From Spiribacter vilamensis (lineage in GTDB: Bacteria > Pseudomonadota > Gammaproteobacteria > Nitrococcales > Nitrococcaceae), in NCBI RefSeq assembly GCF_004217415.1, contig NZ_SHLI01000001.1:868001-932000 (forward strand): DNA of 64,000 bases, written 5' to 3'. Shown piece by piece: positions 848 to 35,314 of the stretch. Positions within the stretch are counted from its first letter, which is position 1, and each line of letters opens with the position of its first letter. Position numbers and translations under genes: made by a program. The notes beneath the pieces were generated by a model. It did not search any database, was not told where the DNA came from, and saw only the letters and a program-made list of their open reading frames with translations.

Positions 848-2581
848 ATGAATCGAAGTACAGATTACGAAATTGCCGGTCGTGCGAAACAAAGCGGCTC
901 CATCATGATTGTCGCGATAGTATCAATCTTAGGCGTCGGCGCTGTCGCCGCTGGTACAAACGCGTTACTGACTCAAAACGCTATTACCGTGAACGAAAAG
1001 ACAAGGGCGCTTCACGGGAATAGCGTAGGGGATTCGGTACGTCTGCTTAATGATGGCGGAGTAAATATAGATGCCAATGCCAACAATACGCGACCGAATG
1101 ACATTGAAAGGGTAATGTACCCAGGGGCTAATTTCAATACACATGCGCAATCGAATGCTGCAACCCCAGGCTTCGATTACGATGGCTACATAGAAATTAA
1201 CAACGCGCAGTATGGATACAGTATAGGAGAAAGCGGTCTTGATCCTATAAGGACAGAAAAACAACTTCGAGACCGAATGAAATCTTCCCCGGATAACTCT
1301 TGCTCAATCGACGAATTCGATAATGATGAGGGTGATATCGAAATCGATATACTGTGTGACGATGATGCTAAGGAACTTTCGTTTACGAAGGCACTCATCT
1401 TCGGAGATGAAGGCGCAGATGGGGCTGGAGAAGTCGACTTCGCAATAGACAATTCTGAAAACCTCGACTCTATAGTAATTAAAGATGGTCTCTTTTTTAA
1501 CGGAGAAGATTTCGATATCGAGCTGGATGATTTCAAAGGCGATCTTTCTATTAGCGGCCCTATTAACATCAAGAAAACCGATGGTGACGCGGAATGGCCT
1601 TTCGATATGGAGGGCATTGGCGACATTACAGTTGGCGGAGGAGTTCTCTTGGAAGGGGACGGTGCTGATATTATCGACAATGAAATAAAGTCTAGTATAA
1701 GCATGAATGGGCCGCTTATAATTACCGCGACCGATGGGGATGCTGTAGTTGAATTCGATATAAAAGAAGGTGGAAGCATCAGTGGTTTAAAGGGCGTGCT
1801 GATCGACGGAGAAACAGCGTTGTTTAAATTTAAAGGTATAAACGATCTATTAGAAATCGACGGTCCTGTTATTTTAGATGCAAGCAATGGAGAAGCAAAA
1901 GCGGAATTTGAGTTTGATGGATCCGGGTCACTTAAGATTCCGGAAAAGACGGATGTTTATTCACAAAATGTGGTTTTTATCAGAAGCACTGATGACAAGG
2001 CAGAGCTCCAATTCAAACATACAGCGGATAGCGACATATCAGACAGCGTGGTCATGGGCGCCCCTGTTCTGCTCGAGGGCAATAACGGAGACGCCAAAAT
2101 ACAAATCCAGGGGGAGGACAAAGAAAATTCCGTGTCTGTGAAATTTTTGGAAAAGGTTTTTCTGAAAGGAAACAAGGCAAAATTTGAGGTGAATGAGCTC
2201 GAGAAAGGTCAAACAATTTTTTCCAATGGCGCTTACTTCGACAGCATAAGCCACGATGAAGATGTCAAGTTTGAATTTGAGGAGCTGAATGAGTACGATT
2301 TGGTTTTTGACGGAGGCATATTTTCGGATGATTATATACGTTTCGAACTAAGTGATATCAGAAAGTCGTACTATAATATTGGGGGTGGTGGTTCGAAGCC
2401 GCTTCATAGAAACTATAGGGCCACTGAAAAGGATGTTAACCCATCCAGTTCATTGGACAATCCGCCAGAGATTTCAGATGAGACGCTCGAAAGCCTTGAA
2501 AAAGAGATAAAAGAAGAAATCCCTGATCGTCCTAACGGGTCGGTTAGCATCGGCCGTATCGCTATCCCGGAATTGGAATGA
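848..2581 (+). CDS. PilX/MshP-like membrane-anchored protein with a long acidic repeat (beta-solenoid-like) domain
   Basis: 577 residues. Residues about 15-40 (S-G-S-I-M-I-V-A-I-V-S-I-L-G-V-G-A) form a single N-terminal membrane helix preceded by a short basic/polar stretch, as in PilX/MshP proteins of type IV pilus operons. From about residue 170 to 500 the protein is built of roughly ten to twelve degenerate units of 22-30 residues with the pattern hydrophobic-x-hydrophobic-x-G-P-hydrophobic, then G-D-A, then alternating F/I residues. Such spacing is typical of stacked beta-strands (solenoid or beta-helix). Asp and Glu are very abundant, which suits a halophile or Ca binding. The end overlaps the prepilin peptidase gene by 4 bases (ATGA). 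Role in the pilus (adhesive minor component or assembly factor) is an inference; family assignment of the repeat region is unknown. Confidence 0.7.
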   Translation: MNRSTDYEIAGRAKQSGSIMIVAIVSILGVGAVAAGTNALLTQNAITVNEKTRALHGNSVGDSVRLLNDGGVNIDANANNTRPNDIERVMYPGANFNTHAQSNAATPGFDYDGYIEINNAQYGYSIGESGLDPIRTEKQLRDRMKSSPDNSCSIDEFDNDEGDIEIDILCDDDAKELSFTKALIFGDEGADGAGEVDFAIDNSENLDSIVIKDGLFFNGEDFDIELDDFKGDLSISGPINIKKTDGDAEWPFDMEGIGDITVGGGVLLEGDGADIIDNEIKSSISMNGPLIITATDGDAVVEFDIKEGGSISGLKGVLIDGETALFKFKGINDLLEIDGPVILDASNGEAKAEFEFDGSGSLKIPEKTDVYSQNVVFIRSTDDKAELQFKHTADSDISDSVVMGAPVLLEGNNGDAKIQIQGEDKENSVSVKFLEKVFLKGNKAKFEVNELEKGQTIFSNGAYFDSISHDEDVKFEFEELNEYDLVFDGGIFSDDYIRFELSDIRKSYYNIGGGGSKPLHRNYRATEKDVNPSSSLDNPPEISDETLESLEKEIKEEIPDRPNGSVSIGRIAIPELE

Positions 2582-3390
2582 CCTTTATCTTTCCCGTTTT
2601 CCTTGGGGCTCTTGTCGGCAGCTTCTTAAACGTAGTCATCTCCCGCATCCCCGCGCAGATCGACTACGCCGAGCGGCAGACTGACTCTGCATCCGGTGAT
2701 AATGCACCTCCCCCCGGCATCGCCTGGCCGGGCTCTCACTGCCCCCACTGCAAGCACCCGATCCGCATCCGTGACAACATCCCCATCATCAGCTGGCTGC
2801 TGCTCCGTGGACGCTGCCGCGATTGCGATGCCCCGATCTCGCCCCGCTATCCATTCACCGAAGCGCTAACGGCGATTGTCTTTGCCGCCGTTGTCGCCTG
2901 GTACGGCATCGAGCCAATCACCGCCGTGCTCCTGCTGCTCAGTGGATGGATGATCGCGATGGCTATCATCGACTTCGAGACGCATCTGCTGCCGGATGCC
3001 CTCACGCTGAGCGGCCTCTGGATCGGTTTGCTCGTGAGTGTCGGGACCGACTTCATTACCCCGACGATGTCGATCATCGGCGCCGCAGCCGGGTATTCAT
3101 CGCTATGGCTGATCAATGCCGGCTATCGGTTGCTGCGGGGCATCGAAGGACTGGGGTACGGCGACTTCAAGCTCTTCGCCCTGATCGGCGCCTGGGGCGG
3201 GCCGGAGGCGCTGCTCGCGACGATCCTGATCGCCCCCATTGCCGCGTTGCTGATCATCTTGGCGCAGGCGCCGTTAATGGGTATCGACGGCCAGCGGGAG
3301 ATCCCCTTTGGGCCCTATCTTGCCGTTGCCGGGTGGATTGCGATAACCGCCCCGCCCTCTCTCGCTGTCTATCTCCCGCCGTGGGGATAG
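2578..3390 (+). CDS. pilD: Prepilin peptidase / N-methyltransferase (PilD-type)
   Basis: 270 residues, full length for PilD. It is an inner-membrane aspartic protease that cleaves prepilin leaders after Gly and methylates the new N terminus. The N-terminal motif G-S-F-L-N-V-V-I-S-R is followed by a zinc-binding tetracysteine (about C55, C58, C80, C83) typical of the bifunctional enzymes. Catalytic aspartates sit in I-I-D-F-E-T (about D132) and G-Y-G-D-F-K (about D196). Several membrane segments are apparent. It overlaps the preceding gene by 4 bases, so it is probably cotranslated, yet its GC content is like the bulk chromosome while the three genes before it are AT-rich. No TadV/CpaA-type peptidase is seen in the Tad locus at 23997-35314, so this enzyme may also process those pilins. 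Confidence 0.95.
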   Translation: MTFIFPVFLGALVGSFLNVVISRIPAQIDYAERQTDSASGDNAPPPGIAWPGSHCPHCKHPIRIRDNIPIISWLLLRGRCRDCDAPISPRYPFTEALTAIVFAAVVAWYGIEPITAVLLLLSGWMIAMAIIDFETHLLPDALTLSGLWIGLLVSVGTDFITPTMSIIGAAAGYSSLWLINAGYRLLRGIEGLGYGDFKLFALIGAWGGPEALLATILIAPIAALLIILAQAPLMGIDGQREIPFGPYLAVAGWIAITAPPSLAVYLPPWG

Positions 3391-22377: not shown

Positions 22378-23964
22378 ATGAACCAGAGCGCCGAGCGCCG
22401 CGTCCGTCGACTGCAGGAACATGGAGAGCGCGGCCTGCTCGCCGGCAGCCGTCACGGGCTGGAGAAAGAGAGCCTGCGCGTGACCCCGACCGGGCAGATC
22501 GCTCAGACGCCGCATCCACCGGGGCTGGGCTCGCCGCTGTGTCATCCGGAGATCACGACCGATTACTCCGAGGCGCTGCTCGAGCTGGTCACGCCCGCCT
22601 ACACCCGCGGCGATGACGCCCTACGGCACCTCGCCGAGCTGCATCGCTACACCGTCGACCAGATCGGCGATGAACTGCTCTGGACCACCTCGATGCCCTG
22701 TGTCGTTGGTGGTGACAAGAGCATCCCGATCGCCGATTACGGCCACTCCAACATCGGGCGCATGAAAAATGTCTACCGCCACGGCCTGGACTGGCGCTAT
22801 GGACGGACCATGCAGGCCATCGCCGGCATCCATTTCAACTTCTCGTTCAGCGAGGCGTTCCTGCGCTCGGTCCAGCGTCGAGAGGGCGATCCGCGGGATT
22901 TCGCGACGTTCCGGTCGGATTTCTACTTTCGCCTGATTCGCAATTTCCAGCGCTACGGCTGGCTCGTGCCGTATCTGATGGGGGCCTCGCCGGCAATCTG
23001 CAAATCGTTCACCGGCGGGCGTAACCTCGATTTCCAGTCATTCTCCCCCAACACGTTCTACACGCCCTATGCGACCTCGCTGCGCATGAGCGACATCGGC
23101 TACAAGAACAACGCCCAGGCGGGCCTCGAGATCGACTACAACGACCTCGACGCCTATGTCGCGAGCCTGCGCTCGGCGATTAGCACCCCCGACCCCGAAT
23201 ACGCGCGTATCGGCACCCGCGTCGACGGCGTCTGGCGGCAGCTGAACACCAACGTGCTGCAGATCGAGAACGAGTACTACAGCTTCGTGCGCCCCAAGGC
23301 CATCGCGCAGTCCGGCGAGCCGCCGACGTGTGCGCTCAACCGCGCCGGCGTCGAGTACGTCGAGATCCGGGCACTGGACCTCAACCCCTTCAACCCGGTC
23401 GGTATCGACGCCGACCAGGTCGCCTTTCTCGAGACGCTGCTGGTTTTCTGCCTGCTCCAGGACAGTCCCCCCATCGACGCGCTCGAGCAACACCATATCA
23501 ACGCCAACCAGGGCCTGGTCGCCCGCGAGGGCCGCGATCCGGACCTCACGCTCTACCGTGGCGATGGCGATCGGGTCGGCCTACGGCAGTGGGCGCGCGA
23601 GCTCTTCGATGCCATGGAGGCACCCGCCGAGCTGCTCGACGAGGTGCATGACGATGGCCGCTACCGCCGTGTCCTCGATGCCTACCGGGAGTCGGTGGAA
23701 GACGCCGACAAAACCCCCTCCGCCCGGGTACTTGCGGAGATGCGCACTCACCGGGAGGAATTCGTGGAGTTCGCGCTGAGAACCTCGGCCGAGCACATGG
23801 AGACGATCCGGGACTGGCCGCTCGATGAGGCGGCAAGGGCCCGCCTGAGCGAGGAGGCCGCCCGCTCGCTCGCCGAACAGGCGAGTCTCGAGGCAAGCGA
23901 CGAGCCCTCCTTCGAGGCCTTCGTCGAGGCCTACTTCGCGCAGGAATCGACCAACGGTCGTTGA
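22378..23964 (+). CDS. gshA: Glutamate--cysteine ligase (gammaproteobacterial type)
   Basis: 528 residues from ATG 22378 (the open frame extends upstream but without homology). First step of glutathione synthesis. It has G-R-S-H-G-L-E-K-E-S-L-R-V-type opening (S-R-H-G-L-E-K-E-S-L-R), D-Y-S-E-A-L-L-E-L-V-T and G-I-H-F-N-F-S-F, all E. coli type GshA landmarks. Length agrees with the family. The Tad locus follows directly on the same strand (33 bases to the chosen tadB start), so readthrough is plausible though functionally unrelated. Confidence 0.96.
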   Translation: MNQSAERRVRRLQEHGERGLLAGSRHGLEKESLRVTPTGQIAQTPHPPGLGSPLCHPEITTDYSEALLELVTPAYTRGDDALRHLAELHRYTVDQIGDELLWTTSMPCVVGGDKSIPIADYGHSNIGRMKNVYRHGLDWRYGRTMQAIAGIHFNFSFSEAFLRSVQRREGDPRDFATFRSDFYFRLIRNFQRYGWLVPYLMGASPAICKSFTGGRNLDFQSFSPNTFYTPYATSLRMSDIGYKNNAQAGLEIDYNDLDAYVASLRSAISTPDPEYARIGTRVDGVWRQLNTNVLQIENEYYSFVRPKAIAQSGEPPTCALNRAGVEYVEIRALDLNPFNPVGIDADQVAFLETLLVFCLLQDSPPIDALEQHHINANQGLVAREGRDPDLTLYRGDGDRVGLRQWARELFDAMEAPAELLDEVHDDGRYRRVLDAYRESVEDADKTPSARVLAEMRTHREEFVEFALRTSAEHMETIRDWPLDEAARARLSEEAARSLAEQASLEASDEPSFEAFVEAYFAQESTNGR

Positions 23965-23996
23965 ACGCGGCTCGGCCCCCCGGCAGTGTCGGGGGC

Positions 23997-24848
23997 ATGC
24001 CTGCATCGCTTTCACTCGCCTCGATCGGACTTTTCCTCGGCTCAGCGCTGGCGTTCCTGGCCGTCGTGACGGGACTCGCTCCGGCCATCCGGCGCTATCG
24101 ATGCCATGTCCGCGAGACGGCACAGGGTGATCTTCGTGCCCAGTTCATCAATCTACCGGCGCGCACGCTCCTGCAGCTCGCGCTCGGCCTCGGCCTGGTC
24201 CTGACGCTCTCCACCGCGGTAGTGCTTCCCTGGCCTTTGCCCGCCATGGCGGGCCTCACCGGGCTGATGCTGCCGCGTCTCGCCGTGCGCACCATTCGTC
24301 AGCGCCGCCGCCGCGGGATTATCCGCCAACTGCCCGATGCCCTGCAGGCGCTGGCAGGCTCGCTGCGGGCCGGCACCAACATCGGCCGCGCCATGGAGCT
24401 CGTCTCGAGACGACAGCGCCCACCGCTCAGCGAGGAATTCGGGCTCATGCTGAGCCGCCAGCGCCTCGGCGAGGAACTTGACACCGTCCTTGCCGGGTTC
24501 GCCGACCGGGTGCCCTCGGAGGAAACGGCGCTGTTTCGCAACGCCGTGATGATCTCGCACCGCGTCGGCGGTGATCTTGCCCACACCCTCGACACCCTCG
24601 CCGAGACCCTCCGTGAACGTGCCCAGGTCGAGGAGCGCATCGCCGCGCTGACCGCTATGGGCCGGATGCAGGGACGGGTGATGTGCATCCTGCCGTTCGG
24701 CATCGGCGGCATGCTCTACCTCCAGCAGCCGGTGATGATGCAGCGGCTTTTCACCGAGCCCCTCGGCTGGGGAGTGATCGGCATCGTCGCGATCGCCATG
24801 ACCCTGGCGGTGATCTGGATCCGGCGACTGGTAGCGATCGATGTCTGA
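23997..24848 (+). CDS. tadB: Tad pilus platform protein TadB (type II secretion F domain)
   Basis: 283 residues from ATG 23997; a TTG at 23961 would add 12 residues and overlap gshA, and neither start has a strong ribosome site. Inner membrane protein with two N-terminal helices, a central cytosolic T2SSF domain (L-P-D-A-L-Q-A-L-A-G-S-L-R-A-G, R-V-G-G-D-L-A-H-T-L-D-T-L) and two C-terminal helices. TadB and TadC form the platform on which the TadA ATPase acts. First gene of the Tad block here, whereas it commonly follows tadA in other loci. Overlaps tadC by 8 bases. Confidence 0.9.
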   Translation: MPASLSLASIGLFLGSALAFLAVVTGLAPAIRRYRCHVRETAQGDLRAQFINLPARTLLQLALGLGLVLTLSTAVVLPWPLPAMAGLTGLMLPRLAVRTIRQRRRRGIIRQLPDALQALAGSLRAGTNIGRAMELVSRRQRPPLSEEFGLMLSRQRLGEELDTVLAGFADRVPSEETALFRNAVMISHRVGGDLAHTLDTLAETLRERAQVEERIAALTAMGRMQGRVMCILPFGIGGMLYLQQPVMMQRLFTEPLGWGVIGIVAIAMTLAVIWIRRLVAIDV

Positions 24849-25731
24849 ATCGGCACCGTTCATTACGGTCGCGCTGTTCGGCGTGGCCGCTGCCGCCGGC
24901 ATCACGGGCGTGGCCGAGCTGCTTCGACCCGGTCAGTGGCGGCATGCCGATCCATGGCGCGACCCCTCACCGCGGCTTTTCCGACTCCTGCTGCCGATGG
25001 CGAGGGCACTCGCCGAGCGCATCCGCCCCGAGCGCTGGATGTCGACACGCGATCTGGCGGGGCGACTCGACCGGGCCGGCATGGGCTATGCCGTGCTCGC
25101 CGAGGAGTGGATGGTGCTGCGCGGATTGACGGCCCTCGCCGCCGTCATCGTTACACTCGCCCTCCAGCCGGCACTGCGCGAGAGCGGCTGGGACGGCCCC
25201 GGATCACTGCTCGGCGCCGCACTCCTCGGCGGCGTCTATCCGGCAATCTGGCTCCGCGATCAGGGCCTGCGCCGGCAAAAACGGATCGCCCGGCAGTTTC
25301 CGGCACTGCTCGAACTGCTGGGCCTGTCCGTCCGGGCGGGAATGAGCTTCAGCGCGGCGCTACCGCAGTGCAGTGCCCATCTCGAGCGGGGCCCGCTACG
25401 CGAGGAAATGCAGCGCGTCGATCGGGAGATCCGCACCGGCGTCCCTCGCCTGCAGGCGCTCGAGCGCATGGCGAGCCGGGTCGATCTTGGTGCCGTGCAC
25501 GGGTTTGTCGCCGCCATCGCCCAGGCGGATGAGACCGGCGCCGCGATCAGCCAGACCCTCACCGATCAGGCGGCACAACGCCGTCGCGAGCGGTTCGCGG
25601 CCGCCGAGAAGAAGGCCAACGAGGCCCCGGTCAAGATGCTCGCGCCGCTGGTCGGGCTGCTTTTCCCGGTCACCTTTCTGATCATCGGCTTTCCGATCGC
25701 GATGCAGTTCCTCGAAGGCCGGCTGCTGTGA
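24841..25731 (+). CDS. tadC: Tad pilus platform protein TadC (type II secretion F domain)
   Basis: 296 residues. N-terminal membrane helix, a cytosolic part with G-L-S-V-R-A-G-M-S-F-S-A-A-L and A-D-E-T-G-A-A-I-S-Q-T-L and C-terminal helices around K-M-L-A-P-L-V-G-L-L-F-P, matching TadC. It overlaps tadB by 8 bases and the next gene by 4, so the three are cotranslated. Partner of TadB in the pilus assembly platform. Confidence 0.92.
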   Translation: MSESAPFITVALFGVAAAAGITGVAELLRPGQWRHADPWRDPSPRLFRLLLPMARALAERIRPERWMSTRDLAGRLDRAGMGYAVLAEEWMVLRGLTALAAVIVTLALQPALRESGWDGPGSLLGAALLGGVYPAIWLRDQGLRRQKRIARQFPALLELLGLSVRAGMSFSAALPQCSAHLERGPLREEMQRVDREIRTGVPRLQALERMASRVDLGAVHGFVAAIAQADETGAAISQTLTDQAAQRRRERFAAAEKKANEAPVKMLAPLVGLLFPVTFLIIGFPIAMQFLEGRLL

Positions 25732-26102
25732 GCCCGCCCGTCGCGGATCAGTCCACGATCGCGCTACCGATGGAGACCGGCGTGCTGCGCATTCGTATCA
25801 CCCTGGCCGATCGCTTCCTCCCGCGGCTGATCGGGCTGCTGGGGCAGGCGACACCACCCCCGCCCGGCACCGGACTCCTGCTGATCTCCCGCGGCGGCGT
25901 CCATACCGTCGGCATGCGTTATCCCATCGACATCCTTGCACTCGACCGGACCCTGACCATTCTGCGCGTCCATCACGCCGTTGCACCGGGTCGATTCCTG
26001 CGCGCCCCACGGGGAACCGGCGCCACCCTGGAACTGGCCGCTCACAGCGTTCCACCCGGTCTTATCGGCCATCGCTTCCACTCCGAAGAGGATCTCGCAT
26101 GA
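25728..26102 (+). CDS. DUF192 (UPF0127) family protein
   Basis: 124 residues from GTG 25728 overlapping the tadC stop. The DUF192 core is seen: R-L-I-G-L-L-G-Q, then G-L-L-L-I-S-R-G-G-V-H-T-V-G-M-R-Y-P-I-D-I-L, and A-T-L-E-L-A-A. DUF192 proteins are generally small beta-barrels of unknown function, often secreted; this copy has no clear signal peptide. Position inside the Tad gene run suggests a linked job, but that is inference. Overlaps the TPR lipoprotein gene by 4 bases. Confidence 0.8.
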   Translation: MSPPVADQSTIALPMETGVLRIRITLADRFLPRLIGLLGQATPPPPGTGLLLISRGGVHTVGMRYPIDILALDRTLTILRVHHAVAPGRFLRAPRGTGATLELAAHSVPPGLIGHRFHSEEDLA

Positions 26103-26560
26103 TCATGCACCGACCGGCGCGCCTCGCCCTGATCGTCCCGATGCTCCTGCTCCAGGGCTGCCTCGCCCTGACTCCGAACGGGCCACCTTCGGTCATCGAG
26201 ACCCTCGCGGCTGCGGACAGCGCCCTCGAGCGCGGCGACATCGAGCAGGCGCGAATGGGCTACGAACGGGCCCTCGAACAGTCACCGGCACTGGTATCAC
26301 CGCATTTCCAGCTCGGGATTATCGCCTATGGCCGCGGCGACGACCCGGCCGCGCTGGAGCACTTCGACGCCGCGCTCGAGCGCGACCCGGGGCATGTACT
26401 CGCCACCTACAACCTCGCCGTCGTTCACCTGCAACAGGCCCGTTCACTGCTCGACCGCCACGAGCGGCTGGCGCCGATCAGCGCGGGGCGCCCCGATTTA
26501 ATCCGGATCCGCCAGGCGATCGGGGCGCTGGGGCGATCGGCGGCGGGCACCCGCGAGTGA
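26099..26560 (+). CDS. TPR lipoprotein, TadD-like
   Basis: 153 residues. Lipoprotein signal peptide with lipobox L-L-L-Q-G-C (Cys21), then about three tetratricopeptide repeats (for example R-G-D-I-E-Q-A-R-M-G-Y-E-R-A-L-E-Q-S-P, A-L-E-H-F-D-A-A-L-E-R-D-P-G-H). TadD is the TPR pilotin-like lipoprotein of Tad systems that helps place the secretin. It is short for TadD but in the right locus. Directly followed, with no gap, by an apolipoprotein N-acyltransferase-like gene. Confidence 0.82.
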   Translation: MIMHRPARLALIVPMLLLQGCLALTPNGPPSVIETLAAADSALERGDIEQARMGYERALEQSPALVSPHFQLGIIAYGRGDDPAALEHFDAALERDPGHVLATYNLAVVHLQQARSLLDRHERLAPISAGRPDLIRIRQAIGALGRSAAGTRE

Positions 26561-28444
26561 ATGGCCGGCCTTCTCACCGGCCTCCTCGGCATTGCCGCCC
26601 TGCCGCCGATCGCCCTTTTACCGGCCGGACTGATCTGGCTGGTCCCGTGGCTAATGGCACTGCATGCCTCCCCGCCGCGGCGGGTCGTGGAGACGCTCGT
26701 GGCCATCGGCCTCCCCGCCGGATTCGCGATCGGCCCCGTCGTCATCGCCGAGCCGCGACTCACGCTTGTCGTGATCGGTGCCACTCTGACCCCGTTCATC
26801 CTGACAGCCCTGCTCGCGACGGATCGACGCGGTCGAGGCTCGCCGGGCCGGCTGATCATCGCGGTCATCGTGCTCTGCGGACTCCTCGCCGGAGTGCGCG
26901 CACTCGGCCTCCCGCTCTCGCTCAGCCTGTTTCTGCCGACGGGTTTCATCCACCTGCCCCTGATCGGCGCGGGCGGGATACTGGCCTCGGATCTCGCCAT
27001 CGGCCTCCTGCAAACGGCGCTCGCCATTTTACTGCACCACCGGCGGGCCCGAGCGATGACGCCCGCCATCGCGGCCCGGTTTACCGTGGCCCTGTTTGCA
27101 CTGCTGCCGCTCGCCCTGGTCCAACCGCCCGTCGCGACCACCGATGACGCCGAGCGCGCGCGGATTGCGGTTATCCAGACCAACATCACGCCCCGGACCC
27201 GTCACCAGGCCATCGCGGACGGCGGACTGGAAGGCCTCAAGGCGCGCCAGCAACACCTCGCGCGGACCGCCGGGCAGCTGGATGCGGACTGGATCATCTG
27301 GCCCGAGGCCGCGTCGCCGGGGTTTCTCGGGCCGGACTGGCGAGTCACGGACTCATCGGCAACCCACCTGCGTCATGGCTACCGCTACCACCGGCCCGGC
27401 CGTGTCGAAAGCGAGGTCCGGCTATCCGCCGGCAGCGGGGATGAGGATGCCACCGGGCGGCGCTGGGGTAAGCATTACCCCCTGCCCTTCGCCGAGCGCG
27501 ATCTGAGCCCGGTGCATCAAATCAATACCACTCCGCCGGACATCGATGCCCTCGAGGTGCTGATCTGCTCCGATGGCACCCACCCCGGCGCTGTGGATCG
27601 GGCCGCCGCACGTCGACCACGGGTCATCCTCAACCCCGCGAGCGTCGCCTACCTCGGATCGATCCCGCTGCCCGGAATGCACCAGCGCAGTGTTCACCTG
27701 CAGTCGGCGCGGGTCGCTATCGCCATGATCGTCGTCGCTAACGCCGGACCGAGCGCGGTGCTCTACCCGGATGGCAGGAGACGCGTCCTCGCCGCGCCCT
27801 ATACGAGCGGAGTGGCGGCGCTGCCACTGCCCGATCGCTACATCGCCAGCGACCAGGACCCGGGCGTTCTCTATGGCCTGCTCGCGACCGGCTTTGTGGC
27901 CCTTGGCGGCAGCCGGCGAATGCGGGCCCGATCCCCGGCTCGATCATCGCCCCGCTCCGCATGGCCGGTCGTCGGCCTCGCGGCCGCATCAATCGGCATC
28001 GCCATCGTCCTGCAGCATCGATCGCTGGAGAAATTCAGTAGCGCAGCAACGCCGGCGCTGGCAACGCCCCTCGAGACTCGCGCTATTCACTCACCCGCGG
28101 CCGGACACCGCGGTAGCATCGCCCTTCTGGCGCGGGAGTTCGGGGTCGCGACGGACTGGCAAGCCGTCCCCGCATCGGTGGACGCGGCCATGGGCTGGCT
28201 GTGCCGCCAGACGGGACTGATCCCCATGGACCCAATGGCATCATCGATCCGCCCGCCGGCGTTCGGACTGCAGCAATCCACGACCGGGCTTCGGGCCGTG
28301 CGCTGGCGCGTCGGCGCGCAACCCATCGCCTTCGATGCATCGACCGCAGAATTCCAGGCGATTGAGGCTGATGATCCGGCCATTCACTGGCTCGCTACCG
28401 CCCGAACCCTCGACGACTGCCGTTCGGTCATCGCCCCCGAATAG
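26561..28444 (+). CDS. Lnt-like apolipoprotein N-acyltransferase homologue with extra C-terminal domain
   Basis: 627 residues. Residues 1-190 contain about six membrane helices; 200-430 form a nitrilase-fold domain with R-I-A-V-I-Q-T-N-I, I-I-W-P-E-A (E249), W-G-K-H-Y-P-L-P-F (K304) and L-I-C-S-D-G (C336), the Glu-Lys-Cys triad of apolipoprotein N-acyltransferase; a last helix is at about 469-485. About 140 further residues (488-627) of a domain I do not recognise follow, absent from usual Lnt. Lnt normally adds the third acyl chain to lipoproteins in the periplasm. Lying in the Tad operon right after a lipoprotein gene, it might acylate that lipoprotein or a pilus component; this is inference. 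The residue after the catalytic Cys differs from the C-Y-E of housekeeping Lnt, so an amidase role is also possible. Confidence 0.75.
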   Translation: MAGLLTGLLGIAALPPIALLPAGLIWLVPWLMALHASPPRRVVETLVAIGLPAGFAIGPVVIAEPRLTLVVIGATLTPFILTALLATDRRGRGSPGRLIIAVIVLCGLLAGVRALGLPLSLSLFLPTGFIHLPLIGAGGILASDLAIGLLQTALAILLHHRRARAMTPAIAARFTVALFALLPLALVQPPVATTDDAERARIAVIQTNITPRTRHQAIADGGLEGLKARQQHLARTAGQLDADWIIWPEAASPGFLGPDWRVTDSSATHLRHGYRYHRPGRVESEVRLSAGSGDEDATGRRWGKHYPLPFAERDLSPVHQINTTPPDIDALEVLICSDGTHPGAVDRAAARRPRVILNPASVAYLGSIPLPGMHQRSVHLQSARVAIAMIVVANAGPSAVLYPDGRRRVLAAPYTSGVAALPLPDRYIASDQDPGVLYGLLATGFVALGGSRRMRARSPARSSPRSAWPVVGLAAASIGIAIVLQHRSLEKFSSAATPALATPLETRAIHSPAAGHRGSIALLAREFGVATDWQAVPASVDAAMGWLCRQTGLIPMDPMASSIRPPAFGLQQSTTGLRAVRWRVGAQPIAFDASTAEFQAIEADDPAIHWLATARTLDDCRSVIAPE

Positions 28445-28535: not shown

Positions 28536-28823
28536 ATGATCGTTCAACACCCGCATCCAGGCACAGGGCTCAAGAGCCGCCATCGCCAGCGCGGACAGGG
28601 CATGTCCGAGTACATCATCATTACCGCACTGATCGCCGTCGCCGGCATCGGGATCTTCTCCGCCTTCGGCGATACGATCTCGAGCCAGGCCGCTGCGATG
28701 GCCCGCGAGATGGCCGGTCAGGACGGTAGCGATCAAATCGACCGGGCCGATGATCATTCCGAGCGCGCCGCTAGCCGTGCCGATCAGGAAGACACGCTGC
28801 AGAGTTTCGATGCGCAGAACTGA
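28536..28823 (+). CDS. Flp/Tad-type prepilin
   Basis: 95 residues from ATG 28536 (GGGAGG 7 bases before). A 20-residue basic leader ends in R-G, and cleavage there gives Q-G-M-S-E-Y-I-I-I-T-A-L-I-A, with Glu at +5 and Tyr at +6 as in Flp pilins, then a single hydrophobic helix. The tail after the helix is acidic and hydrophilic. This is the best candidate for the main pilin of the locus. It needs a prepilin peptidase; none is in the cluster. Overlaps the next gene by 14 bases. Confidence 0.85.
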   Translation: MIVQHPHPGTGLKSRHRQRGQGMSEYIIITALIAVAGIGIFSAFGDTISSQAAAMAREMAGQDGSDQIDRADDHSERAASRADQEDTLQSFDAQN

Positions 28824-30045
28824 TCCGCAGCGCGGCCAGGTCCTGCCGGTGGTGCTTGCAACGCTTGCCCTCGCGGCAGCGGCAATCGCCGTCAGCCACC
28901 GCGTCGCCCGCGGCGTCGCCCAGGAATCGGCGGTGGTCAACGCCGCCGATGCGGCCGCCTACAGCGGAGCCGCCTGGACCGCGCGCCGGCTCAACCTGAT
29001 CGCCTATACCAATCGCGCGCTCATCGCGAATCATATCGCCGTCGGCCATGCAGTCGCCTATATCAGCTGGTTGCGATACACCGATGATGCCGTCGAACAG
29101 ATCGAGCGCTACGCCCGCTTTATCCCCTATGTCGGCCCCGCCGTTAGCCAGGCCGAACGGCTCCTGTCCAAGGCGACGAAAGTGTCGGCGCACACGACCG
29201 GTCTCTACATCCGCGGGACGGATGCGTACCTGGATATCCTGACCACCACGCAGTACGACGCCCGAATCGGGCTGCGAAAAGGCAAGGTTGACGAGGCCAT
29301 GCGTCGTGTCGTTCATCGCCACGACGAGCAATTCAAGATCAATGACGCCGACGCCATCGATGCCATCCCGGCGCCGTACGAGGCTGGCATGGACGCGCGG
29401 CTTTTCGCCGAGCGGTTCTCGAGCTACCTCGCACTCGATTCGGTCGGCCCCGGAAAGGACGACGGTTACTTTCAGCGCCTTCTGTCGGCAACCATCGATC
29501 GTGATCGCGGACTGAGTCGCTGGTTACGGGGACCGGCACGCCGCGGGCGCCCACGCTATGGTCGCGGCGGCCGGAAATGGAATCACTCCGTTTTCCATAC
29601 GGTTCGGTTTCGCAAACAGGGCGTCACCCAGCAGCCCCCTCTGCCGGATGCCGGCGGCTGGCGATCGGGGGACCGGCTGCAGGTGAGCTTTTTCAACCCG
29701 GCCAAATTCAGCTGGGGATCCTGGGCGACCCTCGCGAGCGGGCGGGCGAGCGCCGATGGTCTCGGCGGCAACTACCGAGGTGTGAGCAAATATACACGTC
29801 TTGAAAATCCACCCGCAGACAAGAAGCTGCTCCGGATCCCGGCACTGGTCACCGCACCGCTTCCGGGCGCTGATGACGCGGATGACGCCAACGCCGTCAA
29901 TGCGCATCTGAGCATCGGCGAGGTGCGCTATCGAGTGCCCGATAACTGTGGCCGCTACTGCCCGGCGCGCCACCGCCCGGCCACCCTGTTCAATCCCTAC
30001 TGGGAGGCCGCTCTCAGCGAGCCGCAGTTACCGAGGCTGCCATGA
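28810..30045 (+). CDS. TadG-like pilus protein (Tad/PilX-type)
   Basis: 411 residues from ATG 28810. N-terminal basic segment then R-G-Q-V-L-P-V-V-L-A-T-L-A-L-A-A-A-A-I, a single membrane helix as in TadG/von Willebrand-like Tad proteins; A-V-V-N-A-A-D-A-A-A-Y-S-G-A is the typical continuation. The remaining 350 residues are a periplasmic domain I cannot assign; no vWA MIDAS motif is evident. Probably a minor pilin-like anchor or assembly factor of the Tad pilus. Overlaps both neighbours (14 and 4 bases). Confidence 0.75.
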   Translation: MRRTDPQRGQVLPVVLATLALAAAAIAVSHRVARGVAQESAVVNAADAAAYSGAAWTARRLNLIAYTNRALIANHIAVGHAVAYISWLRYTDDAVEQIERYARFIPYVGPAVSQAERLLSKATKVSAHTTGLYIRGTDAYLDILTTTQYDARIGLRKGKVDEAMRRVVHRHDEQFKINDADAIDAIPAPYEAGMDARLFAERFSSYLALDSVGPGKDDGYFQRLLSATIDRDRGLSRWLRGPARRGRPRYGRGGRKWNHSVFHTVRFRKQGVTQQPPLPDAGGWRSGDRLQVSFFNPAKFSWGSWATLASGRASADGLGGNYRGVSKYTRLENPPADKKLLRIPALVTAPLPGADDADDANAVNAHLSIGEVRYRVPDNCGRYCPARHRPATLFNPYWEAALSEPQLPRLP

Positions 30046-30800
30046 GCGGCCAGCACGGAACGGCCATGACGGAATCGCTGATCGGTCTGCTCGCCATTAT
30101 CCCGGCGTTTCTGGCGATGGACCATCTCGGACGCCTCCAGGACATGGAACGCGCCGCGATCGCCGGCGCACGCTATGCCGCCTGGGAGGAGATCAGCGGC
30201 CGCGGCAAAGACGATGCATTACCAATCGCCATCGAGGACCGCATCTTCGGCAACGATCACGCCCCGATCGTGGATAGGGCGCGCCTCAGACGCGAAGGCG
30301 TCAGCCAGAACCCGCTCTGGCAAGATCGCGACGGGATGCTCCGCGACACCGACGCGGATGGCATCCAACGCCAGGACGGACGCAAGCGCGGGAACTCCAA
30401 TCTGCCCGAGCCCGGCACTGCCGTCCGCAACATCGCCTACGGTCAGTCCATCCCCGATGTCATCGAGGCCACCGGGCTATCCGGTGACATGCTCGGATTA
30501 CCCCGGGAGACGCTCGTCGGCCATCGGCTACGGATGGGCGCCCGGCCCCGCCTCGAGGAGGGTGACCGAAACCCGCCGCTCGTCTTCGAGGCGCAGGGGG
30601 CTATTTCGCCGGGGCACTGGCAGGCCGGAAGTGACCGTGCCTACCAGCGACGGACCGAACGGATCGTCGCGAGTGAACCCGTCGATACGCTATCCAAACC
30701 CGCCCAGGCACTGGGCGGATTCTTCGTGTTCAAGGAGGGACGCTATGCCCGCTCGACCGACTTCGTACCCCGATCCGATCTTTTCCCGACCCGGCATTGA
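30042..30800 (+). CDS. TadE-like pseudopilin
   Basis: 252 residues. Short leader ending in H-G, then T-A-M-T-E-S-L-I-G-L-L-A-I-I-P-A-F-L-A-M: Glu at +5 and a hydrophobic helix, the TadE/TadF pseudopilin signature. The rest is a polar globular domain with no known signature. It would be cleaved by a prepilin peptidase and joins the pilus base or tip in Tad systems. Overlaps the TadG-like gene by 4 bases and the next gene by 56 bases. Confidence 0.78.
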   Translation: MSGQHGTAMTESLIGLLAIIPAFLAMDHLGRLQDMERAAIAGARYAAWEEISGRGKDDALPIAIEDRIFGNDHAPIVDRARLRREGVSQNPLWQDRDGMLRDTDADGIQRQDGRKRGNSNLPEPGTAVRNIAYGQSIPDVIEATGLSGDMLGLPRETLVGHRLRMGARPRLEEGDRNPPLVFEAQGAISPGHWQAGSDRAYQRRTERIVASEPVDTLSKPAQALGGFFVFKEGRYARSTDFVPRSDLFPTRH

Positions 30801-31506
30801 CCGACCGCAATGGCGCAGCTCCTTCGTGTCGGGACTCGCCACCGGCCTGCTGGCGATCTCCGCGACAGCGATCGGCAACGACTGCGCTGACGAGCTTCGC
30901 ACCCTCCCGCTGCCCGCAGATGCAGCCGAGGTGTATCGCGACGGTCAGGTTGTATTTGGCGGCAGAAAGATGTGCCAGCTTGCTTACAAGACGGAGGAAT
31001 CCATCGACATGCTCACGTCGCGATACGAGGAGCACTGGGAGCACAAAGCAGGAGATCTGTTCAGGCACGGAACCGGCGATAACGGCGACGCGATTCTGAC
31101 GCAATCGGGAGGTCCCCGGGAGCGCTACATGGAGATTCAGCGCGACGGGTCGGGTCATGCAGTGATGGTCAACATCATCGCGAATCCCGGCGCGGACGTA
31201 ACATCCGTTAAGCCTTACATCCCGCTGCCGGACAGCTTCGAGGTGTTCACGCAGCAACGGAATCGCGATGGATTCACTGTGATCGCCCATACCTCGCTGG
31301 CATCCGAACCCGCGATCGAGCGGGTTGTGGAACGACTGGAGAGTGCAGGCTGGCGTGTCGATGATAATGGCCCCAGCCAATTGCTCGGATACCGGTTCGC
31401 GGCCATGAGCCGTGGCACGGATACACTCGACCTCGCTGTTGCCGGGAATGAGGAGGGGGCGCAGGCCACAATTCACGGCGTTGTCCCGGTATCGACCGAT
31501 GAGTAG
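30745..31506 (+). CDS. Exported protein of unknown function in the Tad locus
   Basis: 253 residues from ATG 30745, supported by AGGAGGG 5 bases upstream, so it starts inside the previous gene in another frame. A hydrophobic segment at about 27-44 (F-V-S-G-L-A-T-G-L-L-A-I-S) probably serves as a signal or anchor, followed by a region with two cysteines and no recognised domain. The C-terminal third has an alpha/beta look (A-I-E-R-V-V-E-R-L-E-S-A-G-W). Base composition is slightly lower in GC than neighbours. Position argues for a periplasmic Tad-system component. Confidence 0.65.
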   Translation: MPARPTSYPDPIFSRPGIDRPQWRSSFVSGLATGLLAISATAIGNDCADELRTLPLPADAAEVYRDGQVVFGGRKMCQLAYKTEESIDMLTSRYEEHWEHKAGDLFRHGTGDNGDAILTQSGGPRERYMEIQRDGSGHAVMVNIIANPGADVTSVKPYIPLPDSFEVFTQQRNRDGFTVIAHTSLASEPAIERVVERLESAGWRVDDNGPSQLLGYRFAAMSRGTDTLDLAVAGNEEGAQATIHGVVPVSTDE

Positions 31507-31627
31507 TGCCGAATACCTCGCAGTAGCGGCCGGTCTCGTCGGCGTATGGTCAGGCGTTGATCGGGTCATTAAGGCCCTGGGGAGCCACGGCGACGGCGTT
31601 CTCTGGACCCTCGCGATCCCCCTTTAG
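31499..31627 (+). CDS. 42-residue membrane micro-protein resembling a leaderless Flp pilin
   Basis: ATG 31499 overlaps the previous stop codon by 8 bases. The product M-S-S-A-E-Y-L-A-V-A-A-G-L-V-G-V has Glu at position 5 and Tyr at 6, followed by a hydrophobic helix, then V-D-R-V-I-K-A-L and a short polar C terminus. This is the mature N-terminal pattern of Flp pilins, but there is no leader before it. It might be a pilin-like subunit or regulator. Confidence that it is translated rests on overlap coupling only. Confidence 0.5.
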   Translation: MSSAEYLAVAAGLVGVWSGVDRVIKALGSHGDGVLWTLAIPL

Positions 31628-31651
31628 TCCGGATGCCTGGAGAGATCCGTC

Positions 31652-32440
31652 ATGAATCCCATAAAACGCGGTGTGCTGCTGGTCACCGGCGCCTTGATAG
31701 CCGGCGGTGCCGGGATCTGGTTCGGCGACCGCCATCTCGAGCAGCGAGCCAGTGCACTCGAGGCCGAACTGCGATCGGACCATGCCACACGCGCGGTGAT
31801 CGTCGCCCGCGACCATCTGCCCGAGGGCAGTCGGCTGACCCGGGATGGCGTTGCCATTCGCGATATGCCGGTGAAATTCACTCATGACAGTGCACTCGCG
31901 GCACCCGACTGGTCAGGCATCGCTGGACGGACGCTCAAGCGCGAGGTTGCTGCCGGCCGCGCGATTCTGCCCGCGCATGTCCAGGACACGGATCGGGCAC
32001 GACTCGCCGAGCAGGTCAAACCGGGGGATCGCGCCATCACCATCCCGGTATCCGGCGGTGCGGAGATCGCCGGCCTGCTCGGGCCCGGGGATCGGCTCGA
32101 TCTGATGCTGACTTATCGGAATGACGGCGAGCGCGAGACCGTTCCGCTCCTCGCCGATATCCCTATCCTTGCCACCGGCTCGGAGCTGGGTGACGCCGGC
32201 ACACCCCGAGGCCCCGTCCGGTATGACGATCTCACGCTGGCCGTCTCGCCGCTGGAGGCGGCACGGATCACCCACGCACTCGCGATCGGGGATATCCATG
32301 TCGTCCTGCGTTCCGATACCGACAACGCGCCGGTGGATGGCTTTCGCATCGACGCCGCGGCGCTCATCGATACCGGTCCGGACGCCGATCCAGGCAACGC
32401 CCCACCGGATATCGAACTGATCATCGGAGGCCAGCCATGA
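31652..32440 (+). CDS. cpaB: Flp pilus assembly protein CpaB/RcpC
   Basis: 262 residues. An N-terminal membrane helix, then a SAF-like domain (V-I-V-A-R-D-H-L-P-E-G-S-R-L-T) and the CpaB C-terminal domain (P-G-D-R-A-I-T-I-P-V-S, L-G-P-G-D-R-L-D-L-M-L-T). CpaB is a periplasmic partner of the secretin in Tad pili. GGAGAG lies 7 bases upstream. Four-base overlap with cpaC downstream. Confidence 0.92.
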   Translation: MNPIKRGVLLVTGALIAGGAGIWFGDRHLEQRASALEAELRSDHATRAVIVARDHLPEGSRLTRDGVAIRDMPVKFTHDSALAAPDWSGIAGRTLKREVAAGRAILPAHVQDTDRARLAEQVKPGDRAITIPVSGGAEIAGLLGPGDRLDLMLTYRNDGERETVPLLADIPILATGSELGDAGTPRGPVRYDDLTLAVSPLEAARITHALAIGDIHVVLRSDTDNAPVDGFRIDAAALIDTGPDADPGNAPPDIELIIGGQP

Positions 32441-33717
32441 GCCGCCCCTGTCACCGACACCTGATCGCCCGCATCGCCCTCGCCGCCGGGCTGCTCTGGA
32501 GTCCGCTGACGGCCGCCATCGAGGTCGCCATCGGCCACTCGCGGATCGTCGAGGCGAGCGATATCACGCGTGTTGCCCTCGGCGACGGCGCCCTGGCGGA
32601 GGTCGAGGTGCTCGGTGATGGCGATGGTGTCCTGCTGATGGGACGGGCCGCCGGCCGCACCGATCTGCGACTCTGGTTGGGGAATGGCGAATCCCGGCAT
32701 TTGCCGGTGATCGTCCGGCCGTCATCGGCGTCGACCCGTGATCCGCAACTCGAGGCACTGGCGGCGCGGATCGGCGGCGTCACGCTCGAGCGCACCGCGG
32801 ATGAGTATTTCGTCACCGGCCAACCGGCAACGAAGCGCGACCGGCAGCGCTTCGAGACGCTCATTGCCGCCTACCCGGCACTCGGCGATTTCACGGATCC
32901 GCTGTCGATGACGGAGACACCCACGGTGCAGGTCAAGGCGCGGTTCGTGGAGTTGCGCAAATCCACGCTGCGCGAGATCGGCCTGGACTGGGCCACGCAG
33001 TCGCCGGCGATCAGCTTCGCCTATGCCTCCGATCTCGAGACCAACGATGTATTCCGCGGCGAGCTCGGCGAGTTCCTGCCGTCCAACGCCCTGCCGCTCG
33101 ATATCGGCAAGGGGAACGGCTATCTCGGCGTCGGCCTGAGCCTGACTGCCATGATCGATCTGCTCGGTCAGTCCGGCGAGGCACGGGTCATCGCCGAGCC
33201 CATGCTCTCGGCGCTGAGCGGCACATCGGCCGAGTTCCAGGCCGGTGGCGAGGTGCCCATCCCGATCCAGGGCGCCGATGGCGCGCCCTCGGTGACGTTC
33301 AAGGACTACGGGATTCTGCTCAAGGTCGCCCCTCGGGTGGGCGATGACGCACGGATTCGCACGCGCATCGAGGTGGAGGTAAGCGATGTGGACGAATCCG
33401 TCACGGTCCTCGGCGTCCCCGGGTTCTCGGTGCGCAATGCAGTCACGGAGATGAGCGGCGCGAGTGGCCAGACACTGCTCATTGCCGGGCTCATCGACGA
33501 GCAGCAGTCGCGCGCCGTCAGCGAGGTGCCGGGACTCGGTCAGCTCCCGGTCATCGGCCGACTGTTCCGCTCGGAGCGATTCCAGAACCAGCAGACCGAA
33601 CTCGTCGTGCTGATCACGCCCACCCTACAGGACGAACCTGCCGCGGCGACGCCTCGCGACCCCGCAGGTCGGTCCGCCTCCCGTCGCCTGCCGCTTGAGG
33701 AGATCCGTTATGAGTGA
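32437..33717 (+). CDS. cpaC: Tad secretin CpaC/RcpA
   Basis: 426 residues. Signal peptide ending near L-T-A-A, an N-terminal pilus-assembly (BON/N0-like) region, then the secretin domain from about residue 160 (F-V-E-L-R-K, L-S-A-L-S-G-T-S-A-E-F-Q-A-G-G-E-V-P-I-P, A-P-R-V-G-D-D) with the final V-P-G-L-G-Q-L-P-V-I-G-R-L-F and E-L-V-V-L-I-T-P. It forms the outer membrane channel for the pilus. It has few transmembrane or pilotin motifs of its own, so the TPR lipoprotein may position it. Overlaps tadA by 8 bases. Confidence 0.94.
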   Translation: MSRPCHRHLIARIALAAGLLWSPLTAAIEVAIGHSRIVEASDITRVALGDGALAEVEVLGDGDGVLLMGRAAGRTDLRLWLGNGESRHLPVIVRPSSASTRDPQLEALAARIGGVTLERTADEYFVTGQPATKRDRQRFETLIAAYPALGDFTDPLSMTETPTVQVKARFVELRKSTLREIGLDWATQSPAISFAYASDLETNDVFRGELGEFLPSNALPLDIGKGNGYLGVGLSLTAMIDLLGQSGEARVIAEPMLSALSGTSAEFQAGGEVPIPIQGADGAPSVTFKDYGILLKVAPRVGDDARIRTRIEVEVSDVDESVTVLGVPGFSVRNAVTEMSGASGQTLLIAGLIDEQQSRAVSEVPGLGQLPVIGRLFRSERFQNQQTELVVLITPTLQDEPAAATPRDPAGRSASRRLPLEEIRYE

Positions 33718-35314
33718 GCTCGAGCTCGTCCACCGATTCGGGGATTACTCCCCCACAACCCTCCCGCTCCACCGGGGCGCTCGCTACGCGATCGGCAGCA
33801 GTCGTCGCTGCGACCTGCGCATCAGCGGTAGTGGCATCGCCCGCCGCCATGCCGAGCTGCGTGTCGACGAGTACGGCGTGCATATCCGTCTGCTTGCCGG
33901 TCGCAAGGAGATTGTCTTCAACGGCGAACCGGTCCGTCAGGCCGGCCCCCTCGCCGCCGGTGATACCCTCAGCCTCGGCGATGCGAACTGGCAGATCCGT
34001 CAGGCCGCATCCGACACCGTCTGCGAGGTCGCGGAACCCACGCCCACGCCCATTACAGCCGCATCGCCACAGGCGCCCGTTACCCCGGTTGCGCCGCGGA
34101 TCTCACCCGATCTCGTGCGACGCTTCCAGGAGGGCATCAGCCAGCGACTCGATCTGTATCGCCGCGATATCCTCCAGACGCTCTCCGCGCAACGGCTTCG
34201 CGAGGAGGCCGCGGCCACGGCGTGGCAATTGATCGAGGAGGGAGAGCTCACGCTGCCCGCCGAGGTCGATGCCGAGACCGCCGTCGCCGCGGTGGTCGCC
34301 GAGACCGTCGGGCTCGGGCCGATCGAGTCACTCATGGAAGACCCGGCGGTCAGCGAGATCATGGTCAACGGCCACGAGCGGATCTATGTCGAGCGTGGCG
34401 GGCGGCTCGAGAGAACGGCGCTGGAGTTCAGTTCGGCCGCCTCGCTCGACAGCGTCCTCGATCGCATCGTCTCGCCACTGGGTCGACGACTCGACGAGGG
34501 CTCGCCCCTGGTGGACGCACGGCTGCCGGACGGCTCGCGGGTCAACGCCATAATTCCGCCACTGGCGCTTAACGGCGCTACGCTCACCATCCGACGCTTC
34601 GGCGACGAGCGGATCGGACTCGACGACCTGATCCGCTTCGGTGGACTGGATCGCGAAATGGCCGACTTCCTGCGCCTGTGCGTGCACCGGCGCCGCAACA
34701 TCCTGATCGCCGGCGGCACCGGTACCGGCAAGACCACCGTACTCAATGCCCTGTCCGAGGAGATCGACGAGTCGGAGCGCATCGTCACCATCGAGGACTC
34801 CGCCGAGCTTCGCCTGCAACAGGACCACGTCGTGGCGCTCGAGTCACGACCGCCGAATATCGAGGGCAGTGGCGCCATCCCGATCCGCGACCTGGTCCGC
34901 AATGCGCTTCGCATGCGGCCCGACCGGATCCTCGTCGGTGAGTGCCGCGGCGGGGAGGCCCTGGACATGCTCCAGGCGATGAATACCGGCCACGACGGGT
35001 CACTGACTACGGCCCACGCCAACACCCCGCGTGATGCCCTCGCCCGACTCGAGGTAATGACACTGATGGCGGGCATGGATCTGCCGGCGCGGGCAATCCG
35101 CGATCAGATCGCCGCGGCAATCGATATCGTGGTGCAGCTGACGCGATTCGGCGATGGCGCGAGGCGAATCACGGCGATCACCGAGGTGGCGGGAATGGAG
35201 GGCGACCGGATCCTGCTCACCGAGCTGTTCCGGTACGACGACGGGTTTCATGCCACCGGCCAGATGCCGGCGTTTATCGAACCGACACCGGCATCGGTGA
35301 GCGGATTTACATGA
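33710..35314 (+). CDS. tadA: TadA/CpaF secretion ATPase with N-terminal FHA domain
   Basis: 534 residues from ATG 33710 (TGAGGAG 7 bases upstream, preferred to TTG 33695). Residues about 1-100 are an FHA domain (Y-A-I-G-S-S-R-R-C-D-L-R-I, G-I-A-R-R-H-A-E-L), a phosphothreonine reader. The C-terminal part is the hexameric ATPase: Walker A G-G-T-G-T-G-K-T-T (about residues 334-342), V-T-I-E-D-S-A-E-L, Walker B R-I-L-V-G-E-C-R, and T-A-H-A-N-T. It drives pilus assembly through TadB/TadC. The FHA domain suggests control by protein phosphorylation; no Ser/Thr kinase is in the window. Its last 8 bases overlap the convergent sufT gene. Confidence 0.95.
   Translation: MSELELVHRFGDYSPTTLPLHRGARYAIGSSRRCDLRISGSGIARRHAELRVDEYGVHIRLLAGRKEIVFNGEPVRQAGPLAAGDTLSLGDANWQIRQAASDTVCEVAEPTPTPITAASPQAPVTPVAPRISPDLVRRFQEGISQRLDLYRRDILQTLSAQRLREEAAATAWQLIEEGELTLPAEVDAETAVAAVVAETVGLGPIESLMEDPAVSEIMVNGHERIYVERGGRLERTALEFSSAASLDSVLDRIVSPLGRRLDEGSPLVDARLPDGSRVNAIIPPLALNGATLTIRRFGDERIGLDDLIRFGGLDREMADFLRLCVHRRRNILIAGGTGTGKTTVLNALSEEIDESERIVTIEDSAELRLQQDHVVALESRPPNIEGSGAIPIRDLVRNALRMRPDRILVGECRGGEALDMLQAMNTGHDGSLTTAHANTPRDALARLEVMTLMAGMDLPARAIRDQIAAAIDIVVQLTRFGDGARRITAITEVAGMEGDRILLTELFRYDDGFHATGQMPAFIEPTPASVSGFT

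Follow-up and report, generated by a model that had tools for sequence, protein, structure and literature searches.

A Tad-linked Lnt-like protein with a probable degenerate C39-type domain in Spiribacter vilamensis

The window considered here, a continuous stretch of 64,000 nucleotides from the genome of Spiribacter vilamensis, carries a Tad (type IVc pilus) locus with the recognizable components of this machinery, namely tadA, tadB, tadC, CpaB, RcpA, a Flp-type pilin and a TadD-like TPR lipoprotein. An earlier note on this DNA had placed an open reading frame resembling apolipoprotein N-acyltransferase (Lnt) within the locus, at 26561-28444, and the frame lies exactly there, on the plus strand, with a length of 627 residues. 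The product of this frame is named LntX here. The features of the locus and of LntX itself are as follows:

23961..25731, plus strand: tadB and tadC, encoding T2SSF proteins, in the same operon as LntX (Pfam)
25728..26102, plus strand: DUF192 protein, in the same operon as LntX (Pfam)
26099..26560, plus strand: TadD-like TPR lipoprotein with the lipobox LLQGC (Pfam, sequence)
26561..28444, plus strand: LntX, predicted Lnt-like membrane acyltransferase with a fused, putative C-terminal pseudo-C39 domain, 627 aa (ORF, alignment, AF2, Foldseek)
26561..27160, plus strand: N-terminal Lnt-like membrane part of LntX, about residues 1-200 (AF2 helices, hydropathy)
27161..27860, plus strand: nitrilase (CN-hydrolase) domain, about residues 201-433, with E249, K304, E312 and C336 (alignment, AF2)
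27863..28042, plus strand: two C-terminal helices (435-449 and 464-494) with an Arg-rich loop between them (alignment, AF2; predicted membrane topology)
28043..28441, plus strand: putative degenerate C39-like (papain-fold) domain spanning about residues 495-627, in which C548 and C620 are invariant and the catalytic Cys and His are lacking (genus alignment, AF2, Foldseek, profiles)
28536..28823, plus strand: FlpX, Flp-type pilin with a likely G|QGMSEY processing site (sequence, locus comparison)
28750..35314, plus strand: rest of the Tad locus, comprising a TadG-like protein, the minor-pilin-like orf30042, an exported protein, CpaB, the secretin RcpA and an FHA-TadA-like ATPase (less clear names from position and sequence)

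The stop codon of the TPR frame closes at 26560 and the very next base, 26561, opens LntX, so the two genes adjoin without a gap, as the earlier note had described, and their junction reads GAG TGA ATG. Elsewhere in the locus, DUF192 and tadC are neighbours in several further Tad loci of Gammaproteobacteria as well, and the exported protein (30800-31503), together with an overlapping small membrane ORF bearing an AEY motif (31409-31624), lies between orf30042 and CpaB as a pair with similar counterparts at other Tad loci. In contrast to the locus of the window, the table of Tad components given in PMC10191384 includes no Lnt-like enzyme, and no report tying such an enzyme to Tad, Flp, pilins or C39 domains was found in the literature, chiefly that which is openly accessible.

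The likeness of LntX to Lnt, proposed from the letters alone, is borne out. Family models see it weakly: LntX scores 50.4 bits against the curated lnt model TIGR00546, below its cut-off of 132.9, and 17.3 bits against PF00795, again under the cut-off (Pfam). A profile of ten LntX homologues reaches experimental structures of Lnt at E 5e-6, and Lnt is the top Foldseek match of the AF2 model (mean pLDDT 77), at E 1e-13 over about 500 columns that span both the membrane and nitrilase parts. A chance reading frame is ruled out by the conservation of the catalytic triad and by the codon-position differences from the nearest homologue (0.24/0.19/0.44), which follow a purifying pattern.

The earlier note had advised checking for a separate housekeeping Lnt, and one is present. 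Five PF00795 matches occur elsewhere in the genome (2.08 Mb, two contigs), and the housekeeping enzyme is a 509-aa frame at C1:33.6-35.0 kb bearing both PF00795 and the LNT_N domain, with LntX falling below threshold in the genome searches with either model. LntX is thus not the sole Lnt of the genome, and the objection to a dedicated role that a sole Lnt would have raised falls away. A separate Lnt over the cut-off likewise accompanies LntX in the searched genomes except G113 and G281. In a tree of 37 sequences, which is unrooted and has some long branches and deviating composition in part of its rows, the 18 LntX-type rows split from 16 housekeeping and three other Lnt-like rows with support of 96/93. 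The distant members of the LntX type come close to the lnt cut-off or exceed it.

The catalytic apparatus of LntX appears intact. The triad named in the earlier note, E249, K304 and C336, together with E312, which corresponds to E343 in E. coli Lnt, is invariant across ten Spiribacter-type sequences including that of the window, at identities of 30-64% to the window copy. Mapped on housekeeping Lnt, with E. coli numbering assigned by motif, E267, C387 and E343 are retained in all 18 LntX rows and K335 in 17, and eight of nine distant members keep the full triad and the E343 equivalent. In the LntX of L080 (G113), a Gln stands in place of the catalytic Lys, and that assembly, 95% complete, yielded no further Lnt above the cut-off.

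The residues surrounding this apparatus tell a different story. F416 and a Trp that we take to be W237 are altered in 18/18 LntX rows, and Y388 and E389 are replaced by Ser and Asp in all nine Spiribacter rows, whereas the distant rows retain E389 and carry Tyr, Phe or Leu at position 388. Among 16 housekeeping Lnts, all four positions vary little or not at all. The sequence after the Cys, CSD rather than CYE, was already seen in the earlier note as unlike housekeeping Lnt, and with Ser, Asp and Leu at positions 388, 389 and 416 the window copy lacks the acceptor and cavity residues that are essential in Lnt. In E. coli Lnt, the Y388W, E389A and F416A variants are inactive, and V339A, Y388W and E389A nevertheless still form the acyl-enzyme, which implicates the second, acceptor step of the reaction (PMC5500890). 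E343 has been described as conserved in Lnt and not across the nitrilase superfamily (PMC5500890). The residue changes of LntX could also mean a hydrolase or a loss of function.

The approximately 140 C-terminal residues, which the earlier note had left unassigned, do constitute an additional domain, and what requires revision is their lack of assignment, for they appear to be C39-like, with less certainty for the window copy. The structure prediction suggested at that time gives a defined fold for the isolated domain (AF2 pLDDT 86.7), which is present in all full-length homologues of the genus. Searches of Pfam, which gave no hit, and of PDB sequences were uninformative for the Spiribacter C-terminus. 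A Foldseek search with the window's domain gave nothing at E <0.001, and its best matches (E 0.04-0.4, TM about 0.4-0.5) were mainly papain-like, comprising MepS, the C39 domains of PCAT1 and ComA, a C39-like domain, a viral leader protease and NlpC/P60, with unrelated folds lower in the list. The distant members speak more clearly: PF03412 (Peptidase_C39) exceeds its cut-off in four of eight (L075, L076, L079 and L129), a genome search with PF03412 independently recovered the L075 protein, and hhalign places the distant members with C39 at 98.6% probability and E 1.1e-15. The Spiribacter domain in turn aligns with the distant members over 102 columns (P 2.5e-4) and with C39 directly over 22 columns (P 0.004), against P values of at least 0.24 in fifteen column-shuffled controls. 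In six distant members the C39 Cys is replaced by Ser or Ala, the His by Glu or Trp and the Asp by Ser (Asp is kept in L080), and no Cys occupies the corresponding place in the first helix of the window's domain. The C-terminus of LntX is thus taken to be a catalytically dead peptidase domain of the papain-fold C39 type, an assignment that the fold search and profile comparison support less strongly for the window copy, where it depends on weak Foldseek E-values and on a chain through distant homologues. Judging by the Arg-rich loop that joins the last two helices, the domain probably faces the periplasm, where C548 and C620 might form a disulfide. In the LntX of L012 (G012), both C-terminal membrane helices are absent together and the pseudo-C39 domain is retained.

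Within the genus, LntX occurs in 10 of the 13 other members (split over two contigs in G002), and where contigs reach, the gene order is gshA-tadB-tadC-DUF192-TPR-LntX-FlpX-TadG-orf30042-CpaB-RcpA-TadA. The remaining three, G003, G007 and G011, possess a Tad locus and retain the TPR lipoprotein, but the interval from the TPR gene to FlpX carries no LntX; the assemblies of G003 and G007 are incomplete, with contigs that are unbroken across the site, and the tree is compatible with one or two events behind the absence. The pilus locus can therefore persist without LntX, which is also the fastest-diverging gene of the operon, with 63-67% identity to the copy in the nearest relative of the window, against 69-89% for the other genes.

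Outside the genus, a search of 276 class-level genomes with the TadG-like protein gave a match in 26, the window's own included. A Lnt-like gene was present at eight of the 14 Tad loci read first, seven of them encoding about 650-720 aa and that of L074 510 aa; at the other six, and at eleven more loci matching TadG, no Lnt-like gene was detected at E 0.01. One of these six, L073, belongs to the same genome as L129, a contig fragment with its FlpX on another contig. The LntX-type gene is a divergently oriented neighbour of FlpX in nine genomes from four other gammaproteobacterial genera (G093, G219 and G308; G105; G126 and G352; G183, G281 and G408), and in a fifth genus (L080) it lies near TadG, with FlpX not recognized there. 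At E 1e-60, a profile search recovered members of the distant type in 10 of 369 class-level genomes, a count of that type only, since the copy of the window falls outside this cut-off. With the profile of the distant family, a search across the phylum at E 1e-50 returned nothing, and as it was run without a positive control and also missed the window copy, it says nothing on spread. Wherever the surroundings were readable, LntX-type genes were found at Tad loci, a position conserved across taxa, although this linkage may mirror co-regulation alone. Among the Flp-type pilins of the window and of L071-L128, those at LntX-bearing loci read GQGM/LSEY; where LntX is missing, loci outside the genus mostly show GQGMTEY or GQGFTEY, L071 being an exception. 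This Ser/Thr difference was rejected as evidence on LntX because it follows Tad subtype, which it probably reflects, and the three LntX-less members of the genus also carry Ser.

The earlier note had further envisaged a dedicated acylase or deacylase acting on a pilus lipoprotein or on the pilin. An Lnt-type, triad-bearing and apparently Tad-dedicated enzyme beside a housekeeping Lnt agrees with this idea, and the part that finds no support is a role of the TPR lipoprotein as the specific substrate of this enzyme. The TPR gene persists in the three genus members without LntX, and none was recognizable in the stretches read of distant LntX loci, where it may have escaped recognition and some flanks are cut; an obligate partnership is therefore rejected. 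The pilin is suggested by position, as FlpX lies beside the LntX-type gene at most Tad loci where such a gene occurs, though at the divergent loci this is also just the operon start. The Lnt active site lies on the periplasmic face of the membrane. Type IV prepilins, by comparison, undergo processing at the cytoplasmic face (PMC10191384). The genome search for A24 prepilin peptidases recovered a single one (2578-3390 of the window), which is moreover of PilD type, with the CPHC...CRDC four-Cys motif of the methylating domain; on both counts, acylation of the pilin N-terminus by LntX would be awkward. No dedicated TadV was found in the genome.

With its catalytic residues intact, its partner-binding residues changed and a broken C39 domain fused to it, LntX probably acylates another exported part of the Tad system. 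At a probability of roughly 55%, we favour LntX as a Tad-dedicated Lnt paralogue, an acyltransferase with a changed acceptor in which the pseudo-C39 domain would serve as a substrate-binding module. The retained residues would form an acyl-enzyme at C336, from which an altered acceptor would be acylated, and the pseudo-C39 domain, anchored by the extra helix and probably periplasmic, would bind the substrate as is thought for the C39-like domain of HlyB. The favoured acceptor would be a Tad component whose N-terminus lies free in the periplasm, rather than the TPR lipoprotein alone. More tentatively, the whole Tad-linked family may modify a protein of the pilus system by acylation elsewhere than at a lipobox Cys, with the acceptor presented by the dead C39 domain.

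Of the alternatives, a second Lnt of ordinary function, N-acylating lipoproteins and notably the Tad TPR lipoprotein, with the Tad location only securing supply, seems rather unlikely. The Lnt architecture recovered by Foldseek, the abutting TPR and LntX genes and the scores of the distant members would suit such an enzyme, but the window copy lies far under the lnt cut-off, the essential F416, Y388 and E389 are altered, and either of the two, LntX or the TPR lipoprotein, can be present where its counterpart is missing, as far as TPR genes are recognized in the distant stretches read. A degenerating or non-catalytic scaffold, of which only the fold and pseudo-C39 domain would be used, for binding, appears improbable: the rapid divergence, the absence from three genus members and the Lys to Gln change in L080 point that way, yet the triad is invariant at 30-35% overall identity, the frames are open and the codon pattern is purifying. 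Nitrilase-fold enzymes are mostly hydrolases, and this background, with the altered acceptor site, would accommodate a hydrolase or amidase in the Tad system, be it a deacylase or a small-molecule nitrilase-type enzyme. We give this reading little credence, as the membrane part and the Lnt-typical E343 equivalent (PMC5500890) are retained and the top structural matches are Lnt and not soluble amidases.

Among known systems, Lnt itself (TIGR00546; PDB 5vrg/5n6h) shares with LntX the membrane part, the nitrilase domain, the E-K-C triad and fourth Glu, and is its best fold match; LntX differs from it in scoring under the lnt cut-off, in the alterations at W237, F416, Y388 and E389, in the extra helix and pseudo-C39 domain, in its Tad linkage and in not being the housekeeping copy. 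A functional parallel may be AatD, the gene for which lies on a virulence plasmid. As published descriptions have it, AatD of enteroaggregative and enterotoxigenic E. coli is likewise a system-dedicated Lnt paralogue that retains the four catalytic residues (E, K, E and C) (PMC7943197; PMC7478709), and it acylates an N-terminal Gly, a precedent for a non-Cys acceptor (PMC7943197). Unlike LntX, it is part of an ABC-type secretion system reported, in these accounts, only in Enterobacterales pathogens, and they describe no C39 domain. An unsystematic reading of the Tad neighbours recognized neither Aat ABC partner genes nor an N-terminal-Gly substrate. The C39-like domains (CLDs) of HlyB-type exporters share with the LntX domain a C39 fold without the catalytic Cys, and substrate recruitment has been proposed for them (PMC6363468); CLDs are N-terminal extensions of ABC exporters, whereas that of LntX follows an acyltransferase at its C-terminal end and probably lies in the periplasm.

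If LntX is active, protein acylation would be added to Tad pilus biogenesis, the AatD principle would extend beyond Enterobacterales, and the fusion of an acyltransferase to a dead C39 domain would be described, some members of which the lnt model would name plain Lnt. Should the Tad-linked acylation of a site outside the lipobox prove true, lipid modification would be built into the biogenesis of this pilus. Lnt-like sequences of a clade separate from LntX also occur in the same family and order (L018, L019 and L021; L145-L147): the neighbours read of L018, L019 and L021 included no Tad genes, and in L146 and L147 the gene comes after an exported-protein gene.
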